Shown here piece by piece: positions 1,295 through 62,596 of a DNA stretch of 64,000 nt. The notes beneath the pieces were generated by a model, which made no database searches, was not told the origin of the DNA, and saw only the letters and a program-made list of their open reading frames with translations. The stretch comes from Artemia franciscana. Lineage: Eukaryota; Arthropoda; Branchiopoda; Anostraca; Artemiidae. The translations under genes and the position numbers were made by a program. The stretch is taken from NCBI RefSeq assembly GCF_032884065.1, contig NC_088881.1:5534171-5598170 (forward strand). The letters are read 5' to 3'. Numbering within the stretch: position 1 is the stretch's first letter; every line of letters starts with the position of its first letter.

Positions 1295-1299
1295 ATTCT

Positions 1300-7754: not shown

Positions 7755-7760
7755 TTTATT
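7755..7760 (-). promoter_or_regulatory. Candidate polyadenylation signal AATAAA
   Basis: On the minus strand the stop codon TGA (7762-7760) runs directly into AATAAA, whose first A is the last base of the stop codon. Twenty-odd bases further there is a run of nine A. If used, the 3' UTR would be extremely short. Later signals further left are possible. Confidence 0.35.
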
Positions 7761-8065
7761 CAGTTTACTATTTTCTTTGTTTGTCGATTAAAAACACAAT
7801 CTAAACCTGACACTATTCCAGAGTTATTTATACATCCAATGTTTGACAGGGTTGTTCTCCTCTTCAATAAAGAACTTGGTATAATAGATTTTCTTTTTTT
7901 TCGTCCTTTGTTATTGATTACTTTCTTTTCTTCTATGGTATGTATTCCTTCAGAGCCCTTACTGGAGTTACTTAAGGATTCCCTTTTCTCTGATTTGATA
8001 AGTGATCTGGGAATTATTCGCCGCCATCTTTTTTTCTTCTTTATACCAGTAGACATGGGTGTTTT
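7760..8065 (-). CDS. Left gene, exon 5 (last coding exon)
   Basis: Acceptor AAATTCTAG ends at 8066. The exon opens with AAA ACA CCC ATG and runs 101 codons to TGA at 7762-7760. It encodes residues 142-242. It has two Lys/Arg clusters and two copies of the I-I-P-[RS]-S-L-[IL]-K motif, each followed by L-S-N, which suggests an internal duplication. The 99-codon frame would also open at the internal ATG (8056), so an intronless short product cannot be excluded. Confidence 0.6.
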   Translation of the reverse strand, partial: KTPMSTGIKKKKRWRRIIPRSLIKSEKRESLSNSSKGSEGIHTIEEKKVINNKGRKKRKSIIPSSLLKRRTTLSNIGCINNSGIVSGLDCVFNRQTKKIVN

Positions 8066-9226
8066 CTAGAATTTATATAGAAATACATTATTTAAGTAAA
8101 AAACAAATTACTCGAGATATAGTTCCTTACGACCAGTTCACAATGAAGTTTTACAAACCTCAAGATTCGTTTCGTTCCAAAGACTAAACAACGCTAGTAT
8201 TTTTTCCAAAACCACACAGCCTTTTCAATGATGGAACAAATAAGAGTTCCAAATAGGGAACGGTCCTTTTATTAGGCAGTAAAAAAAATATAGACAAAAG
8301 CTATTACAGAAGTCAAGATAGTTAATGAATCCTATAAGTCAATGGACCGGAAACTGGCCGTGACCCGGAAGTTATTATTTTGTTCAGTATATATATAGTT
8401 TGTTTTAATTTTGATATGTTAGTTTCTCTACTGATGATGATGACTGACTATGTAACCGAAATATCTAGAGCTTTTGTATCTATCCTTTAGTGTCTAATAA
8501 AAAGACCTATCCCTATTTGGAACTCTTATTTTTTTTTCACCAAAGACTAGCAAGATCTGACGCTAGCGATAGCATTTTAATTAGAGTTCAGATCCTAAGT
8601 TAAAATTTTTCGAAATAGTCAAAGAATGTCAAAATAGTCAATAATAATGATTAGCCAAAACTTTGTTTCATTAGACAAGCGGGTGATCACGAAGCTGCGA
8701 TGTGTTTAAAATAAAGAACCCAATGTGACGCAAGACCATTGTCACTCAGGACCATCTCTTTTTCGTTGGTATATGCCTCTTCAAGGCATGGGTGGGAAAG
8801 TATTGAATTTAGCAAAGGAAACCGAAACAATGCTGCTACAAGAAAAATGACACGTGAACTAACTTTGGCGTGGTCCACTACAACTAGAACAGCTGGATCC
8901 ATTCTCATGAGCCCAGCAAACCCAGCAAAAAGCGTCTTTCCAAAACTCTGACAAATTGAAGTCTCGCAGTAATGGAAGCTGATGGTTTGATTTTTAGTTG
9001 GTTTATAGTTGATGGTTTGAGCTGTAAAAAAGACTAAAAGAAAGCAATAAACGAGAGGGAAATAAGAAGCAAAATAAGTGCCACACAAACACACACACAC
9101 ACACACACAAAAAAAAAAAAAACAAACAAAAAAACACTAAAAAGAAAATAAGCGCAAAAAAGTTATTTGACAGCTAAATCCGTATCTGGTGGACCAGATG
9201 GGAAGATGGGAAAACAAAGTGGAAGG

Positions 9227-9281
<55 letters not shown>

Positions 9282-12200
9282 AAAAAGATGAGCACCCGTA
9301 TTAATTTTGTACAAAATCATGAGATATATATGTCACGCCTTCTTAATTCATTCGGCGAGAACCAGAAATTGTGCCGTTCTACCCGGCACCAATAGGTTTT
9401 GGAACTACTTCCAACGACCACTTTGATCTGTCGGCTGTAGTTTCCACAGCAATCTCCATCCAGCTTCTGTCCCACTTCCCATCAAGCACCCTGTAAGCCT
9501 TCCCATGATTCTAGATCACCTTTGATTTTTTTTCCATAGATTCTTGTTCTATCCTCCGGGTTGCTCTCCCCAGGAGGGTGGTGGCTCTAATACAAAAGCT
9601 TTTGATTTATTTTAAGGACCTTGGAATAACCTCTAATGACTATTTTAGTTGATTGGTTAAGTATCTTCTATAATCCTCAGCCAGTATGTGTCCCATTATG
9701 CATCAACAGTCATGTCTCCAGAAGTTCCCGAATAAAGTTTGACTCTTTCTCTCAAATCTACCTTTTAAAACAGTTAAAAACTTTAGCATTAAGAGCAGAT
9801 CGTTGAGGAGGGAACAGTCCCTTTCATACACGGCGTAATTTCTGTTCATTTTAAGTTTTAATGTCGTTCCTTACTTTTTAGTTAAGAAAAACTTGTTTTT
9901 CTTTAATTTAATTTCTGAATGTTTTTGAATTAATGCATGTTTTGATTTTGGTTCTGCGCACATAAGATAATTAAAAGTTTTAAAGATACCCCTTACTTTC
10001 AGTTGAATTTTTTTCATATTTATTTTATCATTGTTTTTTAAAATAATGCTAGAAAGTACTGCACCCCCTGCATGAATATTCTCTTCGCCCACGATAAATT
10101 CCTCCATGGAAAGATCCTCCCACATAGCCCCCTCCCCTCAACCCCTCCTTTCAAACCAAGAAAATTCCCCTAAAAACGTCTGTATACATCCCAATAACCA
10201 TTACTATAAGTAATGGTCAAAGTTTGTAAGTTACAGCTCCTCCCACGGGGACTGTGGGGGAGTAAATTGTCCCCAAAGACATAGTTAGCAGAGTAGCATG
10301 GATTAATCTTTGAGATAAGCATATGCTACTGGCAGGATCAACCAGATAACACATTCACGTTACCATCAGGCACATTAGAAACACACTGAACCAACGAGAT
10401 TTCCCTCTAGGAGTAGGCCACCTTGCCATGTCCTTTCAAGACCCTTTTTAATCCCATAATCCCCATTATCGACTATTTTGAATAAAATAACTATCTCAGA
10501 ATTCTGATCCGGTGACTTTGGGGAAAAATGAGCGTGGGAGGGGGCCTAGTTGCTCTCCAGTTTTTTTGGTCACTTAAAAAGGGCACTAGAGCTTTTGATT
10601 TCCGTAAGAATGAGCTCTCTCATGACATCCTAGGACCACTGGGTCGATACGATTACCCCTGGAAAAAACCCAAATAAACACGCATACGTGATCTGTCTTC
10701 TGGCAAAAAAATACAAAATTCCACATTTTTTAAGATATACAGTAGACTTCTACAGTAGGGTTCTCTGATTCGCTGAATCTGATGGTGTGATTTTCGTTAA
10801 AATTTTATGAGTTTCAAGGGGTGTTTCCTCCTATTTCCTAAAATAAGGCAAATTTTCTGAGGCTCGTAACTTTTGATGGGTGGGACTAAACTTGATGAAA
10901 CTTATATATTTAAAATAAGCATTAAAATGCAATTATTTGATGTAATTATTGGTATCAAAATTCCGTTTTTTAGAGTTCCTGTTAATGTTGAGCCGGGTCG
11001 CTCCTTACTACAGTTCGTTACCACGAACTGTTTGATCTAGCAAAGAAAAACCGCGGACTGGATGAGCAAATTTACACAAGTGCCTAAATGAGGGGAACCT
11101 ACTTCTAATTGAAGACTTTAATTGGCTTAAAACCATACAAGATCCAAAGCAAAAGAGCATAAAACAGGAGCAGTAGCATAGCGAAGAAATAAAAGAATAG
11201 TGAGAACCTGAAGAATATGGGATACTTGGAAGGAAAAGACTACGGAGAAAGACTCCCTTAAAGTGGATAAACGCAGAGGAAGCAGAGTAGATTGAATTTA
11301 TTGCAGTGAAAACATAACAGCAACAAATTTTGAAACATTTTTTTTTAGGATTGAAATAGCGATCAAAGATAGAAAAAAAAAGGATTCAACAAGAACAGAG
11401 GAACAACAGAAGAATTCAGACAGGGTATCTAGAACATAGTCAAATCTCAAACAGAAAATACAAAAGTACATACGCGAAATTAAAACTGAGAAGAATAGAG
11501 AAAAGAGATCATATGAAGCACGCCACTACAGTACAGGGTTGCTAACTTTTTGGTCTATGAATGTGTCTCCTGAGCATCCCAAAATGTGTCTTTTATTTAA
11601 AATATGCCCATATGTACAAATGGGAAATTTGTACCATGGGCACAAATTTCATTCAAGATTCTAGATTTCAGGGCATCTGGGAAATCATTCTAAATGGCGT
11701 CAAAATTGAAGTAGGATCGTATCGTTCTAGTTCAGATCTCAGATCGTTTCATTTTAAGTATCTATGACGCCCGCAACTTTCATTCAAGATTCTAGATTGC
11801 GTGGCATATAGATGGATAGATACTTGATTTTGTGATTAAACCAAAAACAGGTATTTCAAAGAAAAAAAAACAACAAAAAACACGTACACACTACAAAAAA
11901 AGTAGAAAAAAGAATACACACTATATCTGGGAAATTATTCTAAATGACGTCAAATTGAAATACGACCGTATCGTTCTAGTTCAGACCTGAGATAGTATCT
12001 TTTTCATTACCTATGACGCCCACAAATTTCATTCAAGATTCTAGATTTCATTGCATCTGGGAAATTATTCTAAATGGCGTCAGACTGAATAGACCAATGT
12101 TCTTATACAAAACGTTTCTTGGCACAGACTGGGCTAGACGAGGAAAATATTATAGTTATCCTTACTGTTTTTGAAAATTATAGAGCATTCTAACAAGCTC

Positions 12201-15200
12201 TGCCTAAAAATAATCCTCAACATTACCTGTGTTCCTTCCAAAGCAGATTTTTCAATACCCGTGTCTTCTGTTACAATAGACTTTTCAGAGTCGTAAAAGT
12301 CTGAGGCTTTTATACAACTCTCATCGGTCGGCTCACATACCCCTTGAATGTCTGCTATTCGATACCCCTCTTTCTAAAAATAAAGAAATATATAAATTCA
12401 CTTTTTCATATTTTTTAAAGTTATTAGTTAGTTATAAGTTATTATTTTTTTTATGTTAGCACAGCGTCTAAATATTTCATCGATTTCACTTATTTTTTAT
12501 TTCAACTTTTAAAGGTTCTGAATTTTTAAAGGTGCACAGTAGATTTAGAATTCAGCGAAAACGATCTCCTCTAAAAAAAAAGAATTTTTAGTTGAATACT
12601 CTTTCCCGGGCCCTAGTTTAGACTATAAATCCATTCCTTGGCGCACCTTATTTACCTAGCACAGTAGATTCAGAAAACGATCTCCTCTAAAAAAGGAATT
12701 TGTAGTTGAATACTCTTTCCCGGGCCCTAGTTTAGACTATAAATCCATCTTTTGGCACCCCTTAATAAAAGAACATTTATACTTTTAAAACCTTTAAAAG
12801 TTAATAACAAATAAAACCACCACAATATTAATAAAATAAAATTGTCACAACTGATCCACAAAGGTCACAGAAGCTAACAGAGTTACTGCGATAAGAACAG
12901 CTGCTTTGACGTTCTCATCAGAGCAACTCTTTTAGTTTGTGTGACCTATGTGGAACAGTTACAACAATTGCGTTTTTATTTTAGTTATACAGTTAAAATA
13001 TCAGTTCGTTTTAGTTTTTTTCATTTTTCCTCTCTACTGGCCGCAGTCTCCTTTGTCGTTTTTCATTGAGTTTTTTTTCTCTTTGTTGTTTTTCACATTT
13101 AGAGGCGCTGATATCTTCTCTGACCATAGCCTGATGGCAGCAAAAATCAGGGTAAAGTTGTCAGCCCCAAAAAAGGTGAGGATAGCTAGGCAACGGCCCA
13201 CTGACTGTGAAAAACTGAGTGATTTAGAAACCCGGGTACAGTTTATGTTAAAACTGACGAACAGATTTGAAACCCTGGATCTACCGCTAGATCTCTGTTC
13301 TTGGAGCAAGAACAGACGCATATCTCTCATCATGGGATTGCGGACCCTTTAGCCACAGTTATTCGTAGAGGCACACCTTTTTTGAAGCACCTGATCCCTT
13401 GTTTTCACTATCTACATTGGCATAGTGTTGTTTTGTCCTCAGTGCTTCCTTACATTTGTTTTATTGTTTTCTCTTTTTTTCTTTTTTTTATTCAATACAA
13501 CACTTTTATGCGTCTTGGGAAATAAATGTGTCATCGTCATCATCATTACTACAATCAGCTTACCATTAGATTTCGATCAGTATATATAGAAACTACCATG
13601 AGGCCAAATCCAGGAGGGAGGTCACCGGGTTTGACCCCCCCCCCCAAAAAAAAAAATTGGGAGGCTCATAAAACAAATAAAAAAATGCATTTAAAATAAT
13701 TTGATGCGTTAAAAAAATAAAATAAAAAATATGACCTCTTTGCTGCTAGAAGTGATCTCTTTTCTTTCGGTGCGACAATCTTGTGCTGTCGATAACTTCG
13801 TGATATCCTTGCCAATTATTTTGGGTGCTATACTATCTCCATTTTTGTTCGAAATGTTTACTCCAAGCATGGCCGCTAATTCAAGAATTCTTTCCTGAAA
13901 AAATAAATAAAGTAACTACGTATAAAATGAAAAAAAAGCCACAATCAGCATAATGCAATAATAAAAAATAGTTTTAAGTAGTTCAGAGGAATCTTCAATG
14001 ATATCTACTAGTTTGTAACATATCAAAAAAGGACTATTTACAAACGGGAAATTTCATTATAATAGATTTAGATTCATATATTTATCACTTCCCCAAAAAT
14101 AACATTATTCTCTAAAATATATGGAACTCTTTTTCTGCAAAATGTCATGAAATTTGTTTTTCAAATACTCACTACCAAATAACCAGAACTTGTAAAACTA
14201 TTCAATTCATTGAGTTTTCAACTCATTGGGAAACTATTCAATTCATTGAGAAAAAACATTCAAATTCAATTCAATCTCTCTCTCTTTAGTAAACAATTAC
14301 ATTATTTAAAAGCTCGAGAGCCACATAAAAGACATAAGTCCCAGGGGGGCTTTATCTTCTAACCATCTTTTGACATAGAAAATATTTAAAAAGTGGTTAC
14401 ACAAACATCTAATTTAAAAATTTTCCACAAAAAAAGAAAATCAATCTTCCAAGAAAAAAGATTTAAATCTTTCTTTCGTGCCACAACCTACCAGCCTGCG
14501 AACCACCCCATTTCCCGGCACCCCTCCATAAAATCCATAAATCTTAACCATCTATTTCAATACAAGAACTTTTTGACTTTGGTTTTAACAAAACTAAGTT
14601 ACCAGCAGCTCTAATACAACCCGGGATACCATTCCACTCTGAAAAAGCATTGTTTCCGTGAACCAATTATTCTGTGAAACAATAATAGTGAAACCCGACC
14701 TCGTGAATAATAATTAATACAAAATAATAACTTATTTCTAACCCAATTATAGAATAATCTGTAATAATAAAGAGAAAGAAAAAATTAAGATTGACGCACG
14801 GATTCAAAATTTTGAACAGCTGGTAATTAACTTACGTTAATGTCTGATTTTAATCTGAAATTAATTTATTCCAATTGCATGAAACATCCTCCTAGTACAA
14901 AGGCGAAAGAAAAACCAAAATTTACAGAAACGGAAACATTAAATACGAATAAAAGAAGATCATTCTTTCCCAAAAGTATGTAAAGGCCATAAACACAGAC
15001 AAAAGGTAAAACATTATGAATTTGTTAAGACAGAAAACAATTTGCATAAAGCTTTACATGAATATTTCCCTCTGATACCAAAAATCTTTGAGTACACAAA
15101 TCCTAATGTTCAGCCTGTGGAAACTAGCCGTCGGACGAACTAGGATGACTAATGGAAATTGGGGAAACTAGGTCGGAAACTAGCCGTGAACGAAAAAATG

Positions 15201-18200
15201 TAAATTAGTTGTAACGTTAATATTCCCTCCCCGAGGAGACAAGACAGTAGGGACGAAAAATATTTTACGAAGAAGGGGGCAAGAGGAACAGAAACCGAAG
15301 GAGGGGTACTCAGATTTATCAATATTCAGGTGAAGTTTTCAGTTTTTGAACAAGCGCAAATACTTTGCTTATACAATTTATTGATTTTGAAAGATTATTT
15401 TTAGATCTACTCGAAACTAAAAGATCATAAACAAAGGCTAGGAATGAAACGGTAGCAAAAGCGTAGAAATGATTTGGAGCTAGTTTCAAAAGTATTCGAG
15501 AAATTGCTAAATTAAACAGACCAGGAAACAAAACTCCTCCTTGTCAAACTCCCTTTCGATCACAAAGAGAACCATTAACTTTGATTTTAAGAAATGAAGA
15601 CAGGAACCAGTATTGAAGTACAAAAATGATGGACATTGTTAGAAATAATGAGCACATTGGAAATTAGAAAAAAAAATACCATTAGAAAATGACGAATGTA
15701 AAAGTTGAAAATAGTTAATGACCTTAGAAACATCAAGCACATAAAGACAAATATCTTAATATCTATTAACAGAAGCAAGTGAAGAATAGAAGATAGAAAA
15801 TGGTGAACGTAGCTGCATCCAACATGAAATCGACACCCACGCAGACTCCCCCCAAAATCGATGCTAGAAGCAACATGAGGAAGAATAATTTATTCTAAAA
15901 CTTTAGTTAGATTACAAGACTCTATAATACGACAAAGAGATGAACAATACAGGGGAAAATTATCTTTTTCAATTACTGCACAAAAAGCTGGCAGGTACAA
16001 TGGACGAACCCTTCGCATTTGAGAAAAATAATGGAAGATGCAAAAAAACTGGTTATATTTAGGCTGAAGGGGGATTGTTGAAATACCATCAAGATTAGTC
16101 AAAGAAGATTTCAGTCTTGACTGAGAGTTCGTTCCGTAAATTTACCTAAATACTGAAGTTACCGTACGGCACAAAAAACTGTCAGGTACAATGGATGAAA
16201 AAAGGCACATTTGAGAAAAATAATGGAAGATGCGATATCAACGGCTCATATTCAAGTTTAATGTGGTTTTCTAAAAAACCATCAAGACCAGTCAAATAAG
16301 ATTTCAGTCTTGACTGAAAGTTCTTTGTAAAAGTTTACCTTTTTAAGTACTGAAGTAACCGTAACGCAAAACAAATTGATAAGTACAGCGGATGAACAAG
16401 GTACATTTGAGAAAAATAATGGAAAATGCGATATCAACGACTAACATTCAGGTTGAAGGAGGTTTACTGAAATATTATCAGGATCAGTCAAAGAACATTT
16501 CAGTCTTGACTGAGAATTCTTTGTGTAAATTTACCTTTTTAAGTACTGAAGCAACCATGCCACTTAAAAAACTATGAGGCACAATGGATGAACCTGGCAC
16601 ACTTGTGAATAATAATGGAAGATGCGGTATCAACGACTAACATTAAGGTTGAAGGAGGTTTACTGAAATATTATCAAGATCAGTCAAATAACATTTCAGT
16701 CTTGACTGAGAATTCTTTGTGTAAATTTACCTTTTTAAGTACTGAAGTATCCATACCACACATTAAATCGTCAAGGACAATGGATGAACCTGACACATTT
16801 GAGAAAAATAACGAAAGATGCGATATTAACGGCTAACATTCAGGTTGAAGGTGGTTTACTGAAATACCATCAAGACCAGTCGAAGAAGATATCATTCTTG
16901 ACTGAGAGTTCTTGTTATAAATTTATCTTTTTAAGTACTGAAGCAACCATGCCACTTAAAAAACTATGAGGTACAATGGATGAGCCGGGCACACTTGTGA
17001 ATAATAACGAAAGATGCGGTATCAACGACTAACATTAAGGTTGAAGGAGGTTTACTGAAATATTATCAAGATCAGTCAAATAACATTTCAGTCTTGACTG
17101 AGAATTCTTTGTGTAAATTTACCTTTTTAAGTACTGAAGTATCCGTACCACAAATTAAATCGTCAAGGACAATGGTTGAACCTGACACATTTGAGAAAAA
17201 TAACGAAAGATGCGATATTAACGGCTAACATTCAGGTTGAAGGTGGTTTACTGAAATACCATCAAGACCAGTCGAAGAAGATATCAGTCTTGACTGAGAG
17301 TTCTTGTTATAAATTTATCTTTTTAAGTACTGAAGCAACCATGCCACTTAAAAAACTATGAGGTACAATGGATGAACCTGGCACACTTGTGAATAATAAT
17401 GGAAGATGCGGTATCAACGACTAACATTCAGGTTGAAGGAGGTTTACTGAAATATTATCAAGATCAGTCAAATAACATTTCAGTCTTGACTGAGAATTCT
17501 TTGTGTAAATTTACCTTTTTAAGTACTGAAGTATCCATACCACACATTAAATCGTCAAGGACAATGGATGAACCTGGCACATTTGAGAAAAATAACGGAA
17601 GATGCGATATTAACGGCTAACATTCAGGTTGAAGGTGGTTTACTGAAATACCATCAAGACCAGTCGAAGAAGATTTCAGTCTTGACTGAGAGTTCTTGTT
17701 ATAAATTTATCTTTTTAAGTACTGAAGCAACCATGCCACTTAAAAAACTATGAGGTACAATGGATGAACCTGGCACACTTGTGAATAATAATGAAAGATG
17801 CGGTATCAACGACTAACATTCAGGTTGAAGGAGGTTTACTGAAATATTATCAAGATCAGTCAAATAACTTTTCAGTCTTGACTGAGAATTCTTTGTGTAA
17901 ATTTACCTTTTTAAGTACTGAAGTATCCATACCACACATTAAATCGTCAAGGACAATGGATGAACCTGACACATTTGAGAAAAATAACGAAAGATGCGAT
18001 ATTAACGGCTAACATTCAGGTTGAAGGTGGTTTACTGAAATACCATCAAGACCAGTCGAAGAAGATATCATTCTTGACTGAGAGTTCTTGTTATAAATTT
18101 ATCTTTTTAAGTACTGAAGCAACCATGCCACTTATAAAACTATGAGGTACAATGGATGAACCGGGCACACTTGTGAATAATAATGAAAGATGCGGTATCA

Positions 18201-21200
18201 ACGACTAACATTCAGGTTGATGGAGGTTTACTGAAATATTATCAAGATCAGTCAAATAACATTTCAGTCTTGACTGAGAATTCTTTGTGTAAATTTACCT
18301 TTTTAAGTACTGAAGTATCCATACCACACATTAAATCGTCAAGGACAATGGATGAACCTGGCACATTTGAGAAAAATAACGGAAGATGCGATATTAACAG
18401 CTAACATTCAGGTTGAAGGTGGTTTACTGAAATACCATCAAGACCAGTCGAAGAAGATTTCAGTCTTGACTGAGAGTTCTTGTTATAAATTTATCTTTTT
18501 AAGTACTGAAGCAACCATGCCACTTAAAAAACTATGAGGTACAATGGATGGACCTGGCACACATGCAGTATCAACGGCTCACATTCAGGTTGAAAGTGGT
18601 TTGCTGAAATACCATCAAGATCTGTACAAGAAGATTTCAGTCTTGACTGAGATTTTTTTGTATAAATTTACCTTTTGAGTACTGAAGTAACCGTACCACA
18701 CAAGAAACTGATAGGTAGAATGGATGTACCTAGAAAATTTGAGAAAAAAAATGGAAGATCCGATATCAACGACTAACATTCAGTTTGAAGGTGGTTTGCT
18801 GAAATATTATCAAGATCAGTCAAAAAAGATTTCATTCTTGACTGAAAGCTCTTTGTATAAATTTATCTTTTTAAGTACTGTTGTGTAAATTCACCTTTAA
18901 AGTACCAAGTATACGTAACACATAAAAACTGTCAGATACAATAGATGAACAAAGGCAGAAAAAGGGAAATGCAATATAAACGGTTTACATTCGGGGTGAA
19001 GGTGATTTTCTGAAATACCATCAAGTTCAGTCGAAGAAGATTTCAGTCTTGACTGAGACTTCTTGTTATAAATTTATCTTTTTAAGTACTGAAGCTACCA
19101 TGCCACTTAAAAAAATATCAGGTACAGCGGATGAACCTGGCACATTTGAGAAAAATAACGGAAGATGCGATATTAACGGCTCACATTCAGGTTGAAGCTG
19201 GTTTACTGAAATACCATCAAGTTCAGTCGAAGAAGATTTCAGTCTTGACTGAGAGTTCTTGTTATAAATTTATCTTTTTAAGTACTGAAGCTACCATGCC
19301 ACTTAAAAAACTATGAGGTACAATGGATGAACCTGGCACACTTGTGAATAATAATGGAAGATGCGGTATCAACGGCTCACATTCAGGTTGAAAGTGGTTT
19401 GCTGAAATACCATCAAGATCTGTACAAGAAGATTTCAGTCTTGACTGAGATTTTTTTGTATAAATTTACCTTTTGAGTACTGAAGTAACCGTACCACACA
19501 AGAAACTGATAGGTAGAATGGATGTACCTAGAAAATTTGAGAAAAAAAATGGAAGATCCGATATCAACGACTAACATTCAGTTTGAAGGTGGTTTGCTGA
19601 AATATTATCAAGATCAGTCAAAAAAGATTTCATTCTTGACTGAAAGCTCTTTGTATAAATTTATCTTTTTAAGTACTGTTGTGTAAATTCACCTTTAAAG
19701 TACCAAGTATACGTAACACATAAAAACTGTCAGATACAATAGATGAACAAAGGCAGAAAAAGGGAAATGCAATATAAACGGTTTACATTCGGGGTGAAGA
19801 TGATTTTCTGAAATACCATCAAGATCAGCCGAGGAAGATTTCAGTCTTGACTGAGAGTTCTTTCTGTAAATTTACCTTTCTTAAGTACTGAAGTTATCGT
19901 ACCACAAAAAAAATGACATGTGCAATGGACGAACAAAAGGTACATTTGAGAAAAATAATGGAAGATGCAATATAAGCGGTTTACATACAGGTTGAAGTAG
20001 GTTTGCTGAAATACCATAAAGATTAGTAGAAGAAGATATCAGTCTTGATAAAAAGTTCTTTGGGTAAATTTACATTTTTCAGTACTGAAATTACCGTACC
20101 ACACAAAAAACTGTCAAGCACAATGGATGAACCTGGTATATTTGAGAAAAATAATGGTAGATGCGGCGTACACGGTTTACATTCAGGTTGAAATACCATC
20201 AAGATCAATCGAGGAAGATTTCAGTCTTGGCAGAGAGTTCTTTATGTAAGTTTACCTCTGTACTGAAGTTACCATCCCACACAAAAAAACTATCAGGTAC
20301 AATGGACGAACAAAGGCTTATTTGAGGAAAATAATGGAAGATACGACATAAACGGTTTACATTCAGGTTGAGGTTGGTTTGCTGAATACCATCTAGACTA
20401 GTTGAGAAATATTTCAGTCTTGACTGAAGGTTCTTTGTGTAAATTTACGGTTTTAAGTACTGAATTTACCCTACCACACAAAAAACTGTCAGGTACAATG
20501 GACGAACAAAGGCACATCTGAGAAAAATAATGGAAGATGTGACATAAACGGTTTACATTCAGGTTGAGGTTGGTTTGCTGAATACCATCAAGACCAGTTG
20601 AGAAATATTTCAGTCTTGACTGAAGGTTCTTTGTGTAAATTTATCTTTTTAAGAACTGAAGTTACTGAACCACAAATAAAAACTGTCAGGTACAATGGAC
20701 GAACAAAGACACATTTGAGAATAACAATGGAAGATACTATACCAACGGTATACATTCTGGCTGAAGTTTGTTTGCTGAAATACTACCAAGATCAGCCGAG
20801 GAAGATTTCAGTCTTTTTATAGCGTTTTCAAGAGATGACAAAGACACCACAAGGGTACGACATTACGATATATTGGATGGAATATATCAAAAAACAAGAC
20901 GGCTACAGCAGGAGTGAACGGCATAATTTGCTACAGAAAAATTACAGAATAGTATTGCCCCCATGTTTCAGGAATATAGAGAAAGGTGAATCACTCTCAA
21001 CCTTATCACAGATATTGAATTCTGTCGGTTCTTTTTGCGGTAAATCCTTCTTTTTGGTGAATTTTCCATGTTGATCAAAAACAAAACCATCAAGTTTACC
21101 TTTAAGAAATGCAGGCGAGCACCAATACTTCGGTATATACAGCAACGTCTGAATTATGTAACTAAATTAGGGAAGGAAATAAAGAGGGTTAGAGAAAAGA

Positions 21201-24200
21201 AGAGAAAGGGGGAGAGATTGTGTGAAAGTAGCATTTTTGTTCCAAACCTTTTCTTTTTAAAGAAATTTTTAAAGAAGGGATAATAATTTTTTCGTTTTAA
21301 AAAAGGGCTACTAAAAGCTGTAAAACTAAACTTTCGTTCATTACTTTAAGATAAGAGACAAACAGGTCTTTTGAACAACCTTCCAATCAGTTGGCAGCCT
21401 TCCCGAAGGCAACATAATCGAAACAATAGCAAAAAATATTGGAAAAACCACAACTAGAAAGTATTTTGGGTACTCTTTATAAATCACAGCTACTATACTA
21501 AAAGAGACAAAAAAAAAACAGCTATAATATGTACCTTTAAGTCACCTACCTTTGAGCCATGATACACTACAGTTGTTTCAATGACTTCTTCCATGTAAAA
21601 AGTGTCCAATGGATCGACACCATACTAAAAATAAATGATATTCGGTAGAGCAAATTCTCCTAGGTTTACAAAGGTAAGCCCTATCCTTACAGAGAGAGGA
21701 TCAAGCATGAGAGCATGCACTTACGGAGGTCGCATCCAATACTCGGATCCAACTGGTTCTAGGAAAACTTTTCCGTTAGTTTCCTAGATTCCATTAATTT
21801 CCACTTTAGGTAGATTAAGTTGTGACAAGAATTTAGGGATCCCAGCCAAAGTTGATGAAGATCCTTGATAAATTTATAAGGAATACCCTAATATAGGTTT
21901 CATCAGGTGTATACACTGAAAAGTCACACAAACAAGCCTAGATTTTACTTCTCAGTTCTTACCAAGTTTGGTCGGGGTAAAACGTCCCATTGAGGTAGAA
22001 TAAGGTGTGACAAGAATTAAACATCCCTCTCAGGAATCCATACCGATATTGGTGAATATATTTCGAAAAATTAATACATAATTCTCTAACAGAGGTTTGA
22101 TGAGGTGTACACTGTGCTCAGATAGTACATGACCTTCAGGTAGGTTAACGTGTGACAAGAATTTAGCGATCCCTGACAAAGCTGATGAAGATATTTTGAT
22201 ACATTTATAATGCATTGTCTAAGTGTTCCATAAAAAATGAGAATTTTATCTTTTTTAAATAATTTTGAATTTACCAGGTTCGGCGGACGTTTTCTTCTTC
22301 ATTTCATCAAAATAAGATTTTTGGATTTCTACCTATGGTGGTTGCAGAGCTACAGATCGGCGATCAGGAAACATGAGCGCTGCTAAGAAATAGCAGCGCT
22401 GCTCTGCCACACTATGAACCAAATGCTTCCGCATGACAAAATTAAATTAAAACTTGAATGTAGGTGAAGCGGCCTCTCTATTTGTGTGCTACTTTTATAG
22501 AAATAAAACATTTAAAAGATATTCTTTTAAAAATAGACAGGATGCTGTTTGACATTTTTCATTTGGATTGTTGTCATTAATGATACGTAATGACAATGAC
22601 AACAACGACTACGCCAATGTTATTGTTGATAAGTAACTTTTAAGTTACAATGCAAACAGGAACGACCAATTTTGCATCGACTACAAAATAAAAAAATGTG
22701 GCGTTATATTCCATCTACAAGAAAAATTTCATAGAGATTTTGGCCTAATAAGAAAAACTGATATTTACACAAATATTATTCTGAAACCTTCTTGTCTTAG
22801 CAGACCTTAGTTGATCTCTTCTTAGTTTAGACCAAACCAATTTTCAACTGAACAGCTAAAATCTTTTGACCTTGTCAGGGAACCATTGTGACGCATAAAT
22901 TTTTTTAAAAAAAATTATGCAATATTAAACAACAACTTAAATTTTACATTAAAATGGAACTAATCAAGCCACAGCATAAATATTAAACAGTAACGAGAAT
23001 TCCTATTCTCTCCACTAAGGATTTTTGGGACGCATCAGTCGCACAGCCTTATTCATGACTAAGCCTTCTTTAATATTTATATTGTAGTAGCAATTGAAAC
23101 TATTGCTGTGACGCAAAGGGAAACTGCGTGTCTCATTCTTGAACCAAATTTTCACAACTGTTTATTATTCATGCTGTGAATATTATGGTTGGATATACTG
23201 ACATAGTTTTCATACTCACAAACAACAAAATTTAAACAAACCATAAAGTTTAACTTCGTGAGTGCTTAGGTTAATACCCTAATATTTAAAAACCTACGGC
23301 ACTTGAGCCATATTTTCATTTTGACCTTTTCAGGCGAATTCGCCCATACCTTTTTGTTTTTCTGGCAGCTCCAATCTCTCATTGGTGCTTCTTAAGGCTC
23401 ACAAGGCAAATTGACAAATTTCATTTGTTTTTTTTTCTTGGGGTGCGGGGGGGGGGAGGAATAATATCCAGTGAACAAAAAGCTTTTTTCACAGTTGCCT
23501 ATTATTTATGGTATTTTGACTTGTAATAAATTATTATAAGATTATGATATTATAATAAAAAAATTAGTATTACTAAAAAGAATAATATAGTTGTTATACT
23601 AATAACAACATTTTACTTGTCTTCACAGTTTTTAGCTCCCTATGTAACTACTGGCAAATTATACAAAGAAACTAAGGCAGGGGTCAGAAGCATATGAAAC
23701 GCGTGTCATCAAGTGATTCATTCACAAATTTTAAATGACAAACTTTGGTTCAAAGAAAGTAGCCTATAAAAAGTAAAAATGGATAAATTATAAAATATAC
23801 ACATTGATAAAAAAAACTTGAGGGAAAAAACTTAAATAGCTACTAATACCAATGGTCTTGATCAATAAAAAAAAATATAAGAATGGATCTTCCAGTGAGA
23901 ACAATGGAAAACTTTCCAGTGAGATTCTTCGAACGAACTTGATTATTACAACGCGTATTGTGTGTAGCTTTCTCGGTTGACAGTCAAATTAAGTAGCACA
24001 ATAATAGTGAATAAGTTACTAAGTTAAAAAATAACAGCGCATTTCCTAAGTTAAATAATGATTATTACTTTTGAAAAATATTATCATGGAAACACAAATA
24101 GCAAAATTACGGTTATGTCAAGATGATCTGCTTGATAAGCATATATCTGTTGAAAATATTTATGCATTATACATACAGAATGTGTGGATATAGATCTGCA

Positions 24201-27200
24201 CGCATGTACTTACAGAAAAGCGTGTATGTACTGAAATAGTGACAAATTTATATGTACTCTATTAAATAACACCAAGATATAAGAGTATGGGTAACTTATA
24301 AGAGTGGGAACGGGCGCTAGAGTCGACAGAGAGAACTGCAACGCCATCTAGCATTTGGAGAAATTTGGCATTGTTTTTTTTTGCGAAATAATAAGAATTA
24401 TTACCTTAATTAGTGTTATTAGTAAAATTAATACATTGTTGTAGCTCTTAACATTGGTAAAAACCGCTAAATTGTGGAAAATAAAACTAATTCTTAAAGT
24501 TTTGTTATCAGGTACTGCAAACTTTGTTGCAGTTCTTAAAATTGGAAATTTATGTTAGATTTTAGAAAAACAATTCTTAAAGTTTTGTTACCAGGTACTG
24601 CAAACTTTGTTGCAGCTCTTAATATTCTTTAAAATACATTTAATTACGGAAAAAAAAACAAATTCTTAAAGTTTTGTTACCAGGTACTGTAAACTTTGTT
24701 CCAGCTATTAACATTAGTTAAACTACGTTAGATTTTAGAAAGAAAAATGGATTCTTAAAGTCTTGTTACCAGTTACTGCAAATTTTGTTGCAACTTTTAA
24801 AATTGGCAATCTACGTTAAGTTTAAGAATAAAAAAAAATGAATTCTTAAAGTTTTGTTGCCAGGTACTGCAAACTTTATTGCAGCTCTTAAATTTCTTTA
24901 AACTACGTTAAATTATGGAAAGCAACACGAAGTCTTAAAGTTTTGTTACCTGGTACTGCAAACTTTGTTGCAGCTCTTAAATTTCTTCAAACTACGTTAA
25001 ATTATGGAAAACAACACGAATTCTGAAAGTTTTGTTACCAGGCACTGCAAACTTTATTCTAGCGCTTAAATTTCTTTAAACTACGTTAAATTGTGGAAAA
25101 CAACACGAATTCTGTAAGTTTTGTTACCAGGTACTGCAAACTTTGTTGCAGCTCTTAAAATTCGGAGACATCGTTAAATTATGGAAAAAAAATCTTAATA
25201 TTTTGTTACCAGGTCTTGCAATCTTTGTTGCAGCTCTGAACGTCGGTGAAACTATTTTAAATATTTGAAGACAAACTTATTCTTAAATTTTTGTTACGGG
25301 TACTGCAAACTTTGTTGCAGATCTTAAATTGGCAATCAACGATTGCCAACGATTGGCAACGATTATAGAAAGAAAAAAAATTCTTAAAGTTTTGTTACCA
25401 GGTACTGCAAACTTGTTGCAGCTCTTAACGTTCTTTAAACTACGTTAAATTATGAAAAATAATACAAATTGTTAAAAATTTGTTACCAGACACTGCAAAC
25501 TTTGTTGCAGCTCTTAAAATTGGTAAACAATGTGAAATTATGGATAACAAAACAAATTCTTAATGTTTTGCTACCGGGTCTCGCAATATTTGTTGCAGCT
25601 CTTAACGTTGGTGAAACTATGTTAAATTTTTGAAAACAAAACGAATTCTTAAAGTTTTGTTACCAGGTACTGCAGACTTTGTTGCAGCTGTTAACATTGG
25701 TAAACTACGTGAAATTTGGGAATTTTTTCTTGAGAGTTTTGTTCCCAGGTACTACAAACTTTCTTGCAGCTCTTAACATTGGTAAAATACGTTAAATTTT
25801 GGAAAACAAAATTAATTCTTAAAGAGTTTTGTTACAAGGTACTGCAAACTTTCTTGCAGCTCTCAACATTGGTAAGCTACGTTAAATTTTCGAAAACAAA
25901 ACAAATTTTTAAAGAGTTTTGTTACCAGGTACTGTAAACTGTGTTGCAGCTCTTAACATTGTTTAAACTACATTAAATTATAAAAAAATAATAAATTCTT
26001 AAAGTTTTGTAACAAGGTACAGCACAATTTTTTTCAGCTCTTAACATTGGTTAAACTACGTTAAATTATAAAAAAAATATTAAAGTTTTGTTACCAAGTA
26101 CTGCAAACTTTGTTGCAACTCTTAAAATTGGTAAACTAAGTTAAATTACGGAAAACAAAACAAATTCTTAAAGTTTTGTAACCAAGTGCTGCAAACTTTC
26201 TTGCAGCTCTCAACATTGGTAAGCTACGTTAAATTTTCGAAAACAAAACAAATTTTTAAAGAGTTTTGTTACCAGGTACTGTAAACTTTGTTGCAGCTCT
26301 TAACATTGTTTAAACTACATTAAATTATAAAAAAATAACAAATTCTTAAAGTTTTGTAACAAGGTACAGCACAATTTTTTTCAGCTCTTAACATTGGTTA
26401 AACTACGTTAAATTATAAAAAAAAAAATATTAAAGTTTTGGTACCAATAACTGCAAACTTTGTTGCAACTCTTAAAATTGGTAAACTAAGTTAAATTATG
26501 GAAAACAAAACAAATTCTTAAAGTTTTGTAACCAAGTACTGCAAACTTTGTTGCAGTTCTCAGAACAATCAGAAAAACAAAAACACAAAAAAAGAAAAAC
26601 AAAAAAACACAAAAACAATCAGAAAAGGTACAATCAGAAAAACACAGACGGAAAGTAGATTTTTGAAAGAAGAAAACTTATTTACAAATTGTTTTATAGG
26701 CTTATTTAATGGCACATAAGAAGCAACGGGAAAAAAGGAGAAAAAAATAACCAATGACAAAAACAAAAATTTAAATCTTGAAGCAACTGGCATATAAAAT
26801 AGAAAGAAAAAGATAATGCATTAATCGAACTAATATTTCAATTACAAACAACAAGGTGTATTTAAGAGTTGAAAAGAAAAAAAATAAGCCGTAATAATGT
26901 TGAAAAAGAAAAGCATCTATAATCAAAGGAGTTGTTTTATTGTCTTTTGAATTCTAATGTTATCCTTTATTCAAATTTTGTGATTTAAGTTCGTCCTTTT
27001 CCAACACCAAGGACGCCATATATAGGCGCAATATTCGTTTGTTTCTTCTTATTTTCCTTCCTAGTGGTCTGCCTCGTTTGTGGCAACTGTAGCCAGCCTC
27101 GTTAGTGGGCGCGGTTTGCCTCGTGTTCTTTGTTGTCCTACTTTTCTTGGTTTGGAGGTTATATCTAACTTGTGATCATAGAAAGTAGACAGTTTGGTCT

Positions 27201-30200: not shown

Positions 30201-32284
30201 AGTATGAATAGTTGCAAGAGTGATACCTTGCAAATAAGTCCTTTTGGTTAGTTCACAATCCATCAGAAAATACCCTGAAAGTTTCAACTTAATACTCTAA
30301 AGCTGATTCTCAGATAGTGCTAGTGCACCCTTTCGACAATATACACATTCATAGTGTGTTTTGATTTAGCTGAACATCCACCTAAATATTCCCTGAAAGC
30401 TTAATACCATTAGTTTCAGTAGGAGCAATAGTTTTAATAGTAGTAACACCAGTAGTAGCAGCATGAGCATAGCACCTTTATTTTTTCAACGTTCACCTCA
30501 ACAACCTCTGATTCAGCTTAAAAACCTATACAGTTCTTGAGACATTGTTAATACGTCATTTTGACAATCTACATTCACATAGTGTGTTTTAATTTAGTTA
30601 AATTTCCTCTGAATATTCATAGAAATTTTTAACTTAATATCTTTAGCTTTAGTAGTAGTAGCTGTAGTAATAGTTATAGCAGTGACAGTAGTAAAAATAG
30701 TAGAAGCAGTGGTATTAGCATGCAAATATTACCTTTTGGTTAGTTCAACATACCCCACAATAAGCCTAGTAAATCTCAACTTCATACCCCAAGCCTCTCC
30801 TATGGTATTGCTGACACGCCCTTTGACAACCTGCATGCAAACAGTTTGTTTTGGTTTAGTTCGACTACTCCTAAAATATTCCCTGAAAGTTTCACTTTAA
30901 TATTCTTAGCCTTACAGGTAGTAGTTGTCGTTAGAGTAGTTGTCTTGGAGTAATAGAAGTAGCACAGGTATTAGCAGTAACAGTAACAGTAATAATAGTA
31001 GCAGTAGTAGTATGCACATATTGCCTTTTGGCATGTTCAACATCACTCTCATCATGCACAGGAAGTTTATAATTTAGTTCAACTTCCCTACCACTATTTC
31101 CTGATATTTTCGCCTTAATAACCTATGCCTTAGTAGTAGTCAATCGTAACAGTAGTCAAAAAGCAGTTAACGTCAATTGATCATCCCTCTCTTCAATATC
31201 CTCTTAATACCCTAAGCGATTCTAATTCCCAATTTCATAATTATCCAACCACTCATTGTTCAGATTTTTTGTATGAATTTCGTCCTACGTCAAGAGCGGG
31301 TTTCAGCATCCGTCATACTGGGTCAAAAATTTGATCAATTCCAGAATCAGTACAAGAATGTAGCAATAAGCGAGAGTTTTTAAAATTATTAAAAAAAAGG
31401 TATGATGGATTTTTATGTAAGTTATGATGGGTTTTCAAATATTTAAATAAATAACAAATGATTAAATGATTTGTGTTTAACCTGTTGCAGGGAATTATTA
31501 TTATTTTTTTGTATATTTATGCTGATGCTGTAGGCTTGCATTTATTTTGGCTTGATTTATTTTTATTTTGTCAGTGCTAACGTATGTAACATTGTCAGTG
31601 ATAGTTTCTATTTTCGTAGTGAACGTAACATTGTAACTTAATCACTGCTAAAGTATGCCACCAGGCATGTGCACTGGTTTGTCATATTTATTTCTGTAAT
31701 TGGTGCAAATAAAAAAGTATCTATCCATCTATTAGTAGCAATGGTTGTGGCAGGAGTGATAGTAGCAGCAGTGGTAGTAGTAGTGTAAATCTATTGTCTG
31801 CTGAACAATTGATCATTCTCTTCATTATTCCCCGAAATTTTCAACTTAATACTTTAAGTCATTCCTAAAATGCACCCTGTTGACAATCCGCAAGCAAACA
31901 TTATGTTTTGATTAAGTCCAACACTCCCCTCGACATTCCCTGAACGCTTTGCCTAGATGGTCTTGGCTATTTTGGACACAAAAAGTCAAACATTTCCCCC
32001 TTTCATAATAAAAAAAACACTATATGCAATTTCCAATTGGGTTAGCCCCTTCTGAAATTCCTACAACAACTTCTTCCACAAAAAAAGAATCTTGGTAAAA
32101 AAAAAAGAATAGGTAGTACATTGTGCCCAATTCACTCTTTACTTAGGATGCACTACTGCACCACTTAGGATTTAAATTGTAGTGTTATTAATTATTTTCA
32201 TAAATACAATTGAACATCAAAGTTAAAGAATTTGAAAATTACCTCTTTTGAAATGCTATTGATTATATCTGGTTCTGATTCCAT
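7760..32284 (-). CDS. Unrecognised basic protein gene, five phase-0 coding exons
   Basis: Reconstructed by eye as join(32284..32243, 21624..21550, 13894..13736, 12373..12227, 8065..7760) on the minus strand. This gives 242 codons plus stop. All four introns are bounded by GT/AG and all fall between codons, so the exons join without a frame break. The start ATG at 32284 sits in a strong context (CAAAATGG). Residues 1-40 are acidic or hydrophobic (MESEPD at the start, YGVDPLDTFYMEE at 15-27). Residues 142-242 are very basic, with KKKKRWRR at 150-157 and GRKKRKS at 195-201, which look like nuclear localisation signals. A motif I-I-P-x-S-[IL]-x-K followed by L-S-N occurs twice, at 158-174 and 202-216. 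I recognise no family. A nuclear role is inferred from the basic clusters only. Introns are 1.5-10.6 kb and full of satellites. Extra small phase-0 exons could have been missed. The exon 3 donor (GTCATA) is the weakest point. Confidence 0.6.
8066..8237. other. Intron 4 sequence, left gene
   Basis: Short AT-rich stretch between exon 5 and the inverted-repeat element at 8238. No feature seen. Confidence 0.4.
8238..8531. mobile_element. TIR element, 294 bp, non-autonomous
   Basis: Two perfect 22-bp inverted termini (8238-8259 and 8510-8531, core AAGAGTTCCAAATAGGG) flank an AT-rich interior with no open frame. The interior includes GATGATGATGACTGAC followed by CGAAATATC. The layout is that of a MITE. 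I could not see a clear target-site duplication, so the superfamily is open. It lies in intron 4 of the left gene. Confidence 0.65.
8532..9770. repeat. Intron 4: (AC)n, A-51 run, degraded repeats
   Basis: A dinucleotide (CA)n tract lies at about 9088-9108 and runs into A-rich DNA. An uninterrupted run of 51 adenines covers 9229-9279. Minus-strand reading around 9360-9520 gives fragments such as ADRSKW and KAYRVLDGKW that are weakly like LINE C-termini. I do not call a gene there. Confidence 0.45.
9780..11030 (+). mobile_element. Foldback/hairpin repeat family, copy 2, with rDNA insert
   Basis: Begins with the head arm (TTTAGCATTAAGAGCAG, GTTGAGGAGGGAACAG, CGTAATTTCTGTTC). It continues through the body (AATTCCTCCATGGA, GGGGACTGTGGGGGAG, GAATCTGATGGTGTGATTTT) and ends with GAGCCGGGTCGCTCC and the terminal hairpin CAGTTCGT-TACC-ACGAACTG near 11010-11031. 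Copies 3 and 4 align block by block. No open frame of note. Copy 4 lacks the segment at about 10288-10455, so that segment is an insertion in this copy. Bases after the hairpin read TTGATCTAG, but the CTAG is not shared by other copies, so a Helitron end is not demonstrated. Confidence 0.65.
10296..10450 (-). pseudogene. 18S rRNA 5'-end fragment with probable 5' ETS
   Basis: On the minus strand, 10348-10296 reads TATCTGGTTGATCCTGCC, then AGTAGCATATGCTTATCTC, AAAGATTAATCCATGC. This is the universally conserved first ~52 nt of eukaryotic 18S rRNA, with a one-base deletion and a few substitutions. The ~100 bp upstream (10349-10450) is not 18S and is most simply the adjoining external transcribed spacer. 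The segment interrupts repeat copy 2. It is too short to function and is a captured rDNA piece. Confidence 0.75.
11035..11560. other. Intron 4 stretch, A-rich
   Basis: Purine-rich sequence with repeated AGAA/GAAA words. No gene or repeat family assigned. Confidence 0.35.
11641..12095. repeat. Imperfect repeats with TTCATTCAAGATTCTAGATT core
   Basis: The core TTCATTCAAGATTCTAGATT recurs at about 11648, 11780 and 12027. It is followed by CATCTGGGAAAT-ATTCTAAATG and by CGTATCGTTCTAGTTCAGA blocks. The units are about 130 bp, partly truncated, and separated by an A-rich insert at 11850-11920. Confidence 0.55.
12227..12373 (-). CDS. Left gene, exon 4
   Basis: 147 bp, 49 codons (residues 93-141), phase 0 on both sides. 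Acceptor TTTTTAG at 12374-12380 and donor ACACAG/GTAATG at 12227/12226. The frame opens with KEGYRIADIQ and ends EKSALEGTQ. It is acidic and Ser/Thr-rich, without a recognised domain. The frame is fully open and consistent with its neighbours, which is the main evidence that it is a real exon. Confidence 0.6.
12534..12770. repeat. Two-copy direct repeat, ~120 bp
   Basis: Two adjacent copies share CACAGTAGATT, AACGATCTCCTCTAAAAAA, ACTCTTTCCCGGGCCC and TAGTTTAGACTATAAATCC, starting about 12536 and 12659. The second copy is slightly shorter. No coding content. Confidence 0.65.
12842..12967. mobile_element. Palindromic MITE, ~126 bp
   Basis: The left half (TTGTCACAACTGATCCAC, AAGGTCACA, AGAGTTACT) and the reverse complement of the right half (TTGTTGTAACTGTTCCAC, TAGGTCACA, AGAGTTGCT) match over about 57 positions at roughly 80 percent. 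The element could fold on itself along almost its full length. Confidence 0.6.
13096..13548 (+). pseudogene. RTE-like LINE endonuclease remnant with 3' tail
   Basis: The frame reads RGADIFSDHSLMAAKIRVKL, then KLSDLETRVQFMLKLTNRFETL. The G-x-D-x-x-S-D-H motif followed by a basic strand is the C-terminal end of the apurinic/apyrimidinic-type endonuclease of RTE/BovB-like retrotransposons (S-D-H contains the conserved catalytic Asp-His). The frame stops at 13350-13352. The 3' part has AATAAATG followed by TCATCGTCATCATCATTAC, a short-repeat tail as expected for RTE elements. The reverse transcriptase is missing, so the copy is internally deleted. It lies in intron 3 of the left gene, on the opposite strand. 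Confidence 0.7.
13596..13665 (+). repeat. C-run mini-repeat (AATCCAGG family) fragment
   Basis: AAATCCAGGAGGGAGG followed by a run of 12-13 C and then A matches the left part of the TIR mini-elements at 52379 and 56341. Truncated. Confidence 0.4.
13736..13894 (-). CDS. Left gene, exon 3
   Basis: 159 bp, 53 codons (residues 40-92), phase 0. Acceptor TTTTTTCAG ends at 13895. The frame starts ERILELAAMLGVNIS and ends KEITSSSKE. The donor AAAGAG/GTCATA (13736/13735) is a weak site. An alternative donor GGA/GTAAAC after residue 50 is also in phase and would give an 11-codon exon. The long version is preferred because the extra frame is open and looks coding. Confidence 0.55.
13895..15300. other. 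Intron 2 stretch, left gene
   Basis: AT-rich DNA. An open frame at 14393-14614 (+) shows no recognisable domain. A short repeated AACTAGCCGT word occurs at 15125-15190. Otherwise nothing assigned. Confidence 0.35.
15310..15975 (-). pseudogene. CR1/Jockey-like LINE reverse transcriptase remnant
   Basis: In different minus-strand frames the order of RT blocks is kept: DNFPLYCSSLCRIIE at about 15900-15970 (compare the N-Y-R-P-I-x-x-S-S block), then FGGSLRGCRFHVG, then FVFMCLMFLRSL, and finally LFPGLFNLAISRIL and FLAFVYDLLVSSRS (15310-15520). The last is the degenerate Y-A-D-D catalytic box, read here as FVYDL. Several frameshifts and stops, and the catalytic D-D pair is lost, so it is inactive. 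At about 15975 it abuts the satellite array. Confidence 0.6.
15976..20830 (+). repeat. Satellite array 1: 196-bp monomers, 392-bp dimeric higher-order repeat
   Basis: About 25 copies of a 196-bp monomer, countable from the TTGACTGA block near 16112, 16308, 16502, 16698 and so on to about 20812. In the homogeneous core (about 16600-18540) two monomer types alternate. One has GAAATATTATCAAGATCAG and the other has GAAATACCATCAAGACCAG. Identical positions therefore recur every 392 bp (17399, 17791, 18183). Monomers at both flanks are more diverged, and some are truncated or duplicated as a larger ~780-bp block (18560-18960 versus 19340-19800). Repeated 61- and 73-codon open frames are a by-product, because 196 is not a multiple of 3. 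The array lies in intron 2 of the left gene. Confidence 0.9.
20942..21148 (-). other. Possible alternative exon or TE protein remnant
   Basis: Minus-strand frame of 68 codons bounded upstream by an acceptor-like TTAGTTACATAATTCAG ending at 21149. The frame includes LYIPKYWCSPAFLKGKL and FVFDQHGKFTKKKDLPQ and stops at 20942. It would be in phase with exon 2 of the left gene, so it could be an alternative last exon. No convincing donor or polyadenylation site was found, and I recognise no domain. A decayed transposon protein is an equally good explanation. Confidence 0.25.
21149..21549. other. Intron 2 stretch next to exon 2
   Basis: AT-rich sequence with a purine-rich patch at 21170-21225. 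No feature beyond the intron donor at 21549-21548. Confidence 0.35.
21550..21624 (-). CDS. Left gene, exon 2
   Basis: 75 bp, 25 codons (residues 15-39), phase 0. Acceptor TTTTTAG ends at 21625 and donor TCAAAG/GTAGGT lies at 21550/21549, both good. The frame reads YGVDPLDTFYMEEVIETT and ends VVYHGSK. It is acidic and hydrophobic. No domain recognised. Confidence 0.6.
21815..22225. repeat. Three diverged ~170-bp repeats
   Basis: GTGACAAGAATT followed by a GATCCC or CATCCC block, a GATGAAGAT or GGTGAATAT block and a late GGTTT-ATCAGGTGT-CACTG block recurs at about 21820, 22010 and 22153. The third copy is truncated. Located in intron 1 of the left gene. Confidence 0.5.
22226..24480. other. Intron 1 stretch with one short hairpin
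   Basis: Mostly unassigned AT-rich DNA. At 22379-22403 there is a perfect 9-bp inverted repeat AGCGCTGCT-N7-AGCAGCGCT. At about 23085-23130 GAAACTATTGCTGTGACGC resembles part of the TA-flanked MITE at 43569, suggesting a decayed relative. A G run lies near 23445-23455. Confidence 0.4.
24485..26560 (+). repeat. Satellite array 2: ~24 monomers of 88-90 bp
   Basis: The block TTCTTAAAGTTTTGTTACC, then AGGTACTGCAAACTTTGTTG, CAGCTCTTAA and a linker GTAAACTACGTTAAATT recurs every 80-95 bp, for example at about 24498, 24580, 24670, 24760 and onward to 26523. Copies diverge by substitutions and linker indels. A larger block is duplicated about 355 bp apart (25850-26060 and 26205-26430). Most copies keep an inverted repeat CTGCAA-ACTTTG-TTGCAG. 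It lies in intron 1 of the left gene. No coding capacity. Confidence 0.9.
26561..27505. other. Intron 1 stretch, unassigned
   Basis: A-rich patch (26565-26640) then unassigned sequence. A 76-codon minus-strand frame at 27061-27291 has a Lys-rich start and no recognised domain. It may be transposon-derived but I cannot support a call. Confidence 0.35.
27510..28600 (+). mobile_element. Foldback/hairpin repeat family, copy 3
   Basis: Head arms are TTCAACTAAAAGTAAGAAGC and AAAACGAACAGAAATGATTA (27507-27560), and their inverse TTTAGCGTAAAGGGCGC, AATAATTTCAGTTCGTTTT and TTTCAGTTGAAAAG (27683-27758). The body follows the same order as copies 2 and 4: GGGGACTATGGGGGGG, AATGAGCCCTCTTTTG, TCCGTGATCTTTCT, GAATCTGATGGTCTC, CTCATAACTTTTGATAAG. 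It ends at the hairpin CAGTTCGT-TCCC-ATGAACTG near 28574-28594. It is more diverged than copies 2 and 4. Confidence 0.65.
28735..28965 (+). repeat. Truncated foldback-family head fragments
   Basis: Two partial arms: AAAGTAAAGAATTACATTAAA near 28780, and AAATCTAAAACGAACAAAAA with AAGCTAAGAGGAGTAGGGC at 28877-28955. They match the left head arm of the foldback family but lack body and tail. Confidence 0.4.
29290..31940 (+). repeat. Dimeric tandem array with embedded AGT microsatellites
   Basis: About nine diverged units of 220-290 bp. Each has a block with TTTAGTTCAACATCCCC and ATTCCCTGAAAGTTTCA. It is followed by a (GTA)n/(AGT)n tract, then a second related block with CTTTTGGTTAGTTCAACAT and ATATTGCT-ACGCCCTTTTGAC. 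First-block starts can be seen near 29346, 29578, 29870, 30117, 30357, 30587, 30848, 31070 and 31905. The array is interrupted at about 31240-31740 by unrelated DNA. It lies in intron 1 of the left gene. Confidence 0.75.
31240..31740 (+). mobile_element. Insertion inside the AGT array, possible retroelement 3' end
   Basis: About 500 bp of sequence without array words separates array units. It ends AATAAAAAAGTATCTATCC followed by ATCTATTAGTAGC, where the array resumes. An AATAAA with a short ATCT-type tail suggests a LINE 3' UTR in plus orientation. No protein remnant is readable, so the class is a guess. Confidence 0.35.
31941..32242. other. Intron 1 sequence next to exon 1
   Basis: Unassigned AT-rich sequence. 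The donor GTAATT of exon 1 lies at 32242-32237. Confidence 0.4.
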
Positions 32285-32305
32285 TTTGAGTCATACACTG
32301 TCAAT
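32243..32305 (-). CDS. Left gene, exon 1 (start codon exon)
   Basis: The coding part is 32284-32243, 14 codons starting MESEPDIINS and ending ISKE, with donor AAAGAG/GTAATT. Upstream in the exon are 21 bases of 5' UTR, back to an acceptor TTTTTCAG ending at 32306, so at least one more non-coding exon should lie further right. The leader contains an out-of-frame ATG (TGTATGACTC) whose short frame overlaps the true start, a possible translational brake. The main ATG has A at -3 and G at +4. Confidence 0.55.

Positions 32306-42050: not shown

Positions 42051-62596
<20,546 letters not shown>

Follow-up and report, generated by a model that had tools for sequence, protein, structure and literature searches.

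Five short open segments on the minus strand of an animal genome can be joined into a single reading frame across 24 kb of repeat-filled introns. Do these segments form one gene, and if so, what could the basic, internally repeated end of its product do? The stretch of DNA analysed here, 64,000 nucleotides in length and referred to as the window, is animal nuclear DNA with a GC content of 30-39% in 2 kb steps. The neighbouring upstream gene is CNOT3 (42054..62596, minus strand), which is not part of the gene described. Its last two exons are found at 43491-43282 and 42149-42054, and the 102 residues encoded by the two when joined match CCR4-NOT transcription complex subunit 3 (PDB ID: 4c0g) with an E-value of 7.1e-60. 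Further exons near 48.8, 51.8, 54.4, 59.8, and 62.6 kb presumably belong to CNOT3 by continuity. The five segments lie downstream of CNOT3 on the same strand.

Structure of the five-exon gene

The joined segments yield a frame of 242 codons plus a TGA, 729 nt in total and without an internal stop, and the length of every segment is a multiple of three (42, 75, 159, 147, and 306 nt, the last including the stop). In the original prediction the segments had been assembled in exactly this way, and its coordinates, GT-AG borders, segment lengths, and 242-codon join could all be verified. Each of the four coding introns starts with GT, ends with AG, and is in phase 0, so the uniform phase that had been noted is real; runs of four phase-0 introns are not unusual in animals. 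Both alternative forward frames are interrupted by stops in all five exons; exons 1, 3, and 5 each have one reverse frame without stops.

The coding part of exon 1, MESEPDIINSISKE (32243..32284, minus strand as for all exons of this gene), begins with the Kozak-like start AAAATGG in the context CTCAAAATGG and ends at the donor gtaatt (3.4 bits). The adjoining stretch 32285..32305 (minus strand), read directly, probably represents the 5' UTR portion of exon 1; it has an in-frame TGA and is preceded by an AG acceptor of 2.5 bits. The in-frame TGA 5' of the ATG, together with the AG acceptor before 32305, makes a 5' UTR intron and a further 5' UTR exon likely. Exon 2 (21550..21624) has 25 codons, exon 3 (13736..13894) 53 codons, and exon 4 (12227..12373) 49 codons; all three are in phase 0-0 and have combined exon scores of 13.7, 16.4, and 20.1 bits, respectively. 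Exons 2 and 4 encode acidic segments (both pI 4.2), and the segment from exon 3 is near neutral with a pI of 8.2. Exon 5 (7760..8065) consists of 101 codons plus the TGA and comprises two diverged units of approximately 40-50 residues. Its product has a pI of 11.3, in agreement with the basic C-terminal exon of the prediction. At 7755..7762 (minus strand) the TGA stop and an AATAAA polyadenylation-like signal, both read directly, overlap, with the signal sharing the last base of the stop codon.

Exon scores compared with simulated sequences

Internal exon candidates were scored by a generic codon measure combined with splice-site weights, with the amino-acid frequencies and splice-site weights taken from general knowledge. 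Among the best non-overlapping candidates on both strands of the window, exons 4, 3, and 2 occupy ranks 6, 9, and 12. Rank 1 goes to the antisense of a CNOT3 exon, whole or partial CNOT3 exons fill ranks 2-5, 7, and 8, and plus-strand segments follow at ranks 10 and 11; exon 4 is thus the highest-ranking candidate of the window without overlap with CNOT3 exons. The antisense segment at rank 1 (62313-62592, plus strand) is open for 93 codons and has the highest coding score of the window, 45.4 bits, which indicates that codon scores alone can mislead.

Beyond CNOT3, at positions 1-42000 of the minus strand, exons 4, 3, and 2 take the first three places among the candidates, and all are in phase 0-0. 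Four candidates in this region reach at least 13.5 bits, namely these three exons and one segment in another phase (13.7 bits), and one candidate does so on the plus strand (13.6 bits). The null model consisted of 60 order-2 Markov sequences of the same length as this region. On average the simulated sequences contained 0.35 candidates of at least 13.5 bits (44 sequences with none, 12 with one, three with two, and one with three); one phase 0-0 exon occurred in 4 of the 60 sequences, and two occurred in none. The segment 30068-29906 (13.7 bits), which nearly ties with exon 2, was considered as an extra exon and rejected; its start is off phase by one base, which precludes a place between phase-0 exons.

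The shortness of exon 1 precludes scoring it alone. Exon 5, lacking a donor and having an acceptor below the threshold, falls outside the simulation test. The exon 5 acceptor is weak (-1.1 bits). The one listed acceptor that scores above 8065, at 8183 (-0.4 bits), is in another phase, and in the frame of exon 5 acceptors upstream of 8066 run into a TAG at 8068-8066. The donor of intron 3, gtcata, is likewise weak (-1.3 bits), and the four other donors listed in exon 3 score lower. With a generic codon score of -10.8 bits for exon 5 and -8.6 bits for its antisense frame, the codon measure does not speak in favour of exon 5.

An internal duplication in exon 5

The core of unit 1, from IIPRSLIK to KRESLSN, is located at 7967..8017 (minus strand), and the core of unit 2, from IIPSSLLK to RRTTLSN, at 7841..7885 (minus strand), both by pattern match and codon comparison. 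In the six frames of the window the relaxed pattern I-I-P-x-S-L-x-K matches only at 8017 and 7885, and R-x-x-L-S-N is found in both exon 5 cores and additionally at 9182 in a copy broken by a stop. The repeat covers most of the exon: 16 of 41 aligned residues are identical, four of these with the same codon. Self-alignment of the exon 5 product gave a local score of 53, which was reached by none of 2000 shuffles (highest score 49). Within the 15-codon core, 10 residues are identical despite base differences at 21 of the 45 positions, of which 6 fall on the first, 3 on the second, and 12 on the third codon position; a leucine (TTA/CTG) and a serine (AGT/TCA) are preserved across different codon boxes. 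In the five other frames at most 4 of 13 core residues are identical. Random-substitution controls without stops retained 10 residues in 0 of 9998 cases, a figure that overstates the strength of the result since the core alignment was picked for protein similarity; the shuffle test is the fairer one.

Thus, the predicted motif duplication within exon 5 holds. The proposal of a young sequence, on the other hand, found no support: third positions differ in 12 of the 15 codons and 10 of the 15 residues are unchanged, which indicates an old and apparently selected duplication. The shuffle test and the codon-position pattern argue that exon 5 is coding in the proposed frame, and point to an old duplication kept at the protein level under selection.

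Copy number and family searches

The genome in which the product was searched for comprises 1.27 Gb in 6468 contigs. Exon 5 alone matched this locus only among the 3 best candidates scored, and the whole product, at E-values up to 10, matched this locus only among the 6 best candidates scored, with four matches that correspond to exons 2 to 5. The candidates scored included neither a paralogue nor a processed copy. Pfam at E-values up to 10, with filters that drop most matches above approximately 0.1, yielded no family for either the product or exon 5. The Protein Data Bank, also at E-values up to 10, returned no match for the product or for either repeat unit; the 242-residue product is as unrecognised in these two databases as had been proposed. 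In viral contigs scanned with exon 5, nine stretches fit the peptide pattern and no relative was found. Hexamer strings of the form IIPxSL retrieved, from the portion of the literature that such strings reach, only flavivirus peptide and vaccine papers, a string search that is no proof of an unpublished gene. Within the window there was neither an Rfam match nor a tRNA according to ARAGORN. As a whole, the five segments look like one real gene for a small protein, single-copy as far as searched.

Properties of the product and proposed mode of action

Residues 1-141 are acidic overall (pI 4.5), whereas residues 142-242 are strongly basic, with a net charge of +20.8 over 101 residues. The product was compared with destruction box, Aurora, NES, NLS, Cy, SILK, and RVxF motifs as defined in general knowledge. 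Pattern matches include the basic clusters KKKKRWRR and GRKKRK, which resemble nuclear localisation signals, and four matches to K[KR]x[KR], which fall in two clusters. The stretch ILELAAMLGV near the start of exon 3 fits a nuclear export pattern. The Cy-type pattern matches twice (residues 41 and 161) and the NES-type pattern three times. No LxCxE or PxVxL motif is present in the 242-residue product. A nuclear role is plausible, being compatible with the charge and the NLS-like clusters; the protein is likely to be located in the nucleus and is probably mostly disordered.

In the proposed scheme, the C-terminal exon came about through an old internal duplication of the unit [basic cluster]-IIPxSL(I/L)K-[KR]Rxx-LSN. 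Nuclear import would be brought about by the basic clusters, and the pair of conserved cores would form a bivalent docking site for a single partner. Docking could perhaps be switched by basophilic kinases, as suggested by the R-x-[S/T]-L kept in both cores. Since most of what the two copies share (IIPxSL(I/L)K and RxxLSN) is non-basic, docking is favoured over a plain charge tail, and the assignment of the two cores to bivalent docking is put forward tentatively, at slightly under even chances. The best explanation as a whole, a real gene, single-copy as far as searched, with an old duplicated basic tail that encodes a nuclear protein with bivalent docking cores, is about evenly balanced between right and wrong. 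That the protein is an undescribed arthropod nuclear regulator whose tandem kinase-gated docking module (IIPxSLxK...RxxLSN) binds a chromatin or mitotic partner and represents a new motif class is considered decidedly unlikely.

Alternative explanations

Two alternatives concern the origin of the exons. The chain could be a chance join of open segments with no gene behind it, because large introns offer many GT/AG choices, the exon 3 donor and the exon 5 acceptor are weak, and exon 5 scores below zero. Yet one strand carries three phase 0-0 exons that reach 13.5 bits, in contrast with the 4 and 0 of 60 simulations that contained one and two such exons, and conservation of the duplicated core is mostly seen in the proposed frame, with 10 of 15 identical residues against at most 4 of 13 elsewhere; a mere chance join appears highly improbable. 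The exons could also descend from a mobile element, as the introns around them contain satellites and sequence that reads like retroelement fragments. This origin is disfavoured by the searches of 1.27 Gb in which exon 5 and the product matched this locus only (3 and 6 candidates scored, respectively), and it is regarded as scarcely conceivable.

The other alternatives accept the gene and differ in what they ascribe to its tail. The cores might be no docking sites but part of a plain nuclear-localisation or nucleic-acid-binding tail, and the high net charge with its two K[KR]x[KR] clusters could by itself explain the conserved lysines and arginines; most of the conserved residues (I-I-P, S-L, and L-S-N), however, are non-basic and are retained through synonymous change, and a plain tail is held to be somewhat unlikely. 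A cell-cycle regulated protein, with the core R-x-x-L as an APC/C destruction box or an Aurora/PKA-type phosphorylation site, would be in line with RESL at residue 169, RTTL at residue 211, and the basophilic sites KRES, KRKS, KRRT, and RRTT. In unit 2 RTTLSNI fits the longer pattern RxxLxx[LIVM], but unit 1 fits only RxxL, no KEN box occurs in the product, and such motifs are common in basic tails; this reading is unlikely. Alternatively, the cores could be ligands of the histone chaperone ASF1, in the manner of the B-domain in HIRA, CAF-1 p60, and codanin-1. The [IV]-x-P part of the B-domain pattern used here derives from the HIRA peptide and general knowledge. The ASF1-binding peptide of HIRA ends in DGRRRITPL (PMC8826447), to which WRRIIPRSL of unit 1 can be compared, codanin-1 employs two B-domains, for which two consecutive basic residues are the criterion (PMC11911400), and CAF-1 p60 is said to carry two as well (PMC10080907). 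Unit 1 with RRIIP fits the pattern [RK][RK][IV]xP, whereas unit 2 with RKSIIP lacks the second basic residue and does not; 727 of 20000 tail shuffles also contain the pattern, one of 12 motif patterns tried, and the conserved LSN lies outside the HIRA-like stretch. Binding of ASF1 is judged very unlikely. These partner readings (ASF1, APC/C, and Aurora-type kinases) rest on short motifs and may be due to chance.

Comparison with known systems

The ASF1-binding B-domain proteins HIRA, CAF-1 p60, codanin-1, and RIF1 are similar to unit 1 in having a basic motif followed by I-x-P, and codanin-1 in having two such motifs. They differ from the product studied here, which has no Pfam domain and in which RR precedes I-I-P in one of the two copies. 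For the conserved SL(I/L)K and LSN, no counterpart is known to us. For DSN1 of the MIS12 complex, phosphorylation of S100/S109 relieves the inhibition by a basic region (PMC8595645). The product shares with DSN1 a basic segment with basophilic sites, but it ends 26 residues past the unit 2 core and its 242 residues match 0 Pfam families at E-values up to 10. The conserved DSN1/MIS13 domain, which Pfam includes, is thus not among the matches at this threshold. A role as PP1 regulator is not supported either, with the SILK-like SLIK/SLLK present and an RVxF-type match absent. Lineage-restricted charged nuclear proteins form a class with which the product has in common that it is small and charged, without a known domain and with one copy found; the old tandem unit under protein-level constraint sets it apart from them. 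Because of the misfit of unit 2, the 727 of 20000 shuffles, the lack of a Pfam domain, and the weak cell-cycle readings, the gene was filed under no family. The gene is credible and unnamed, but does not amount to a surprising new system.

If confirmed, the finding would bring an unnamed gene, whose internal motif duplication is old and selected, to a group of animals that makes the annotation of small charged nuclear proteins difficult, and it would show that exons chained together by eye over 24 kb of introns full of repeats can be correct. Pathway pictures would be unchanged by the gene itself until its partner is known.

Genomic surroundings

Several tandem arrays were observed in the window. 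The intron between exons 2 and 3 contains an array at 15979-20815 with a 196-base unit in approximately 25 copies, with open frames of 60-84 codons across many units. An array with an 89-base unit in approximately 24 copies lies in the first coding intron at 24436-26560, and one with a 119-base unit in 6.9 copies with 96% matches at 63109-63935, near the 62.6 kb CNOT3 exon. Three segments, 36628-36858 (minus strand), 1118-1297 (minus strand), and 59992-60222 (plus strand), are taken to resemble pieces of non-LTR retroelements.

The same genome yielded 75 COX1 matches, many of them on large contigs, and seems rich in nuclear copies of mitochondrial DNA. In a COX1-matching contig, ARAGORN found no tRNA within the locus. 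In view of the 75 matches, this contig could itself be a nuclear copy. Translated with table 5, it reads trnM-ND2-trnW ... COX1-trnL(UUR)-COX2, a gene order suggestive of a pancrustacean; the tRNAs, ND2, and COX2 were read by eye, and trnL(UUR) between COX1 and COX2 is a mark of insects and crustaceans.
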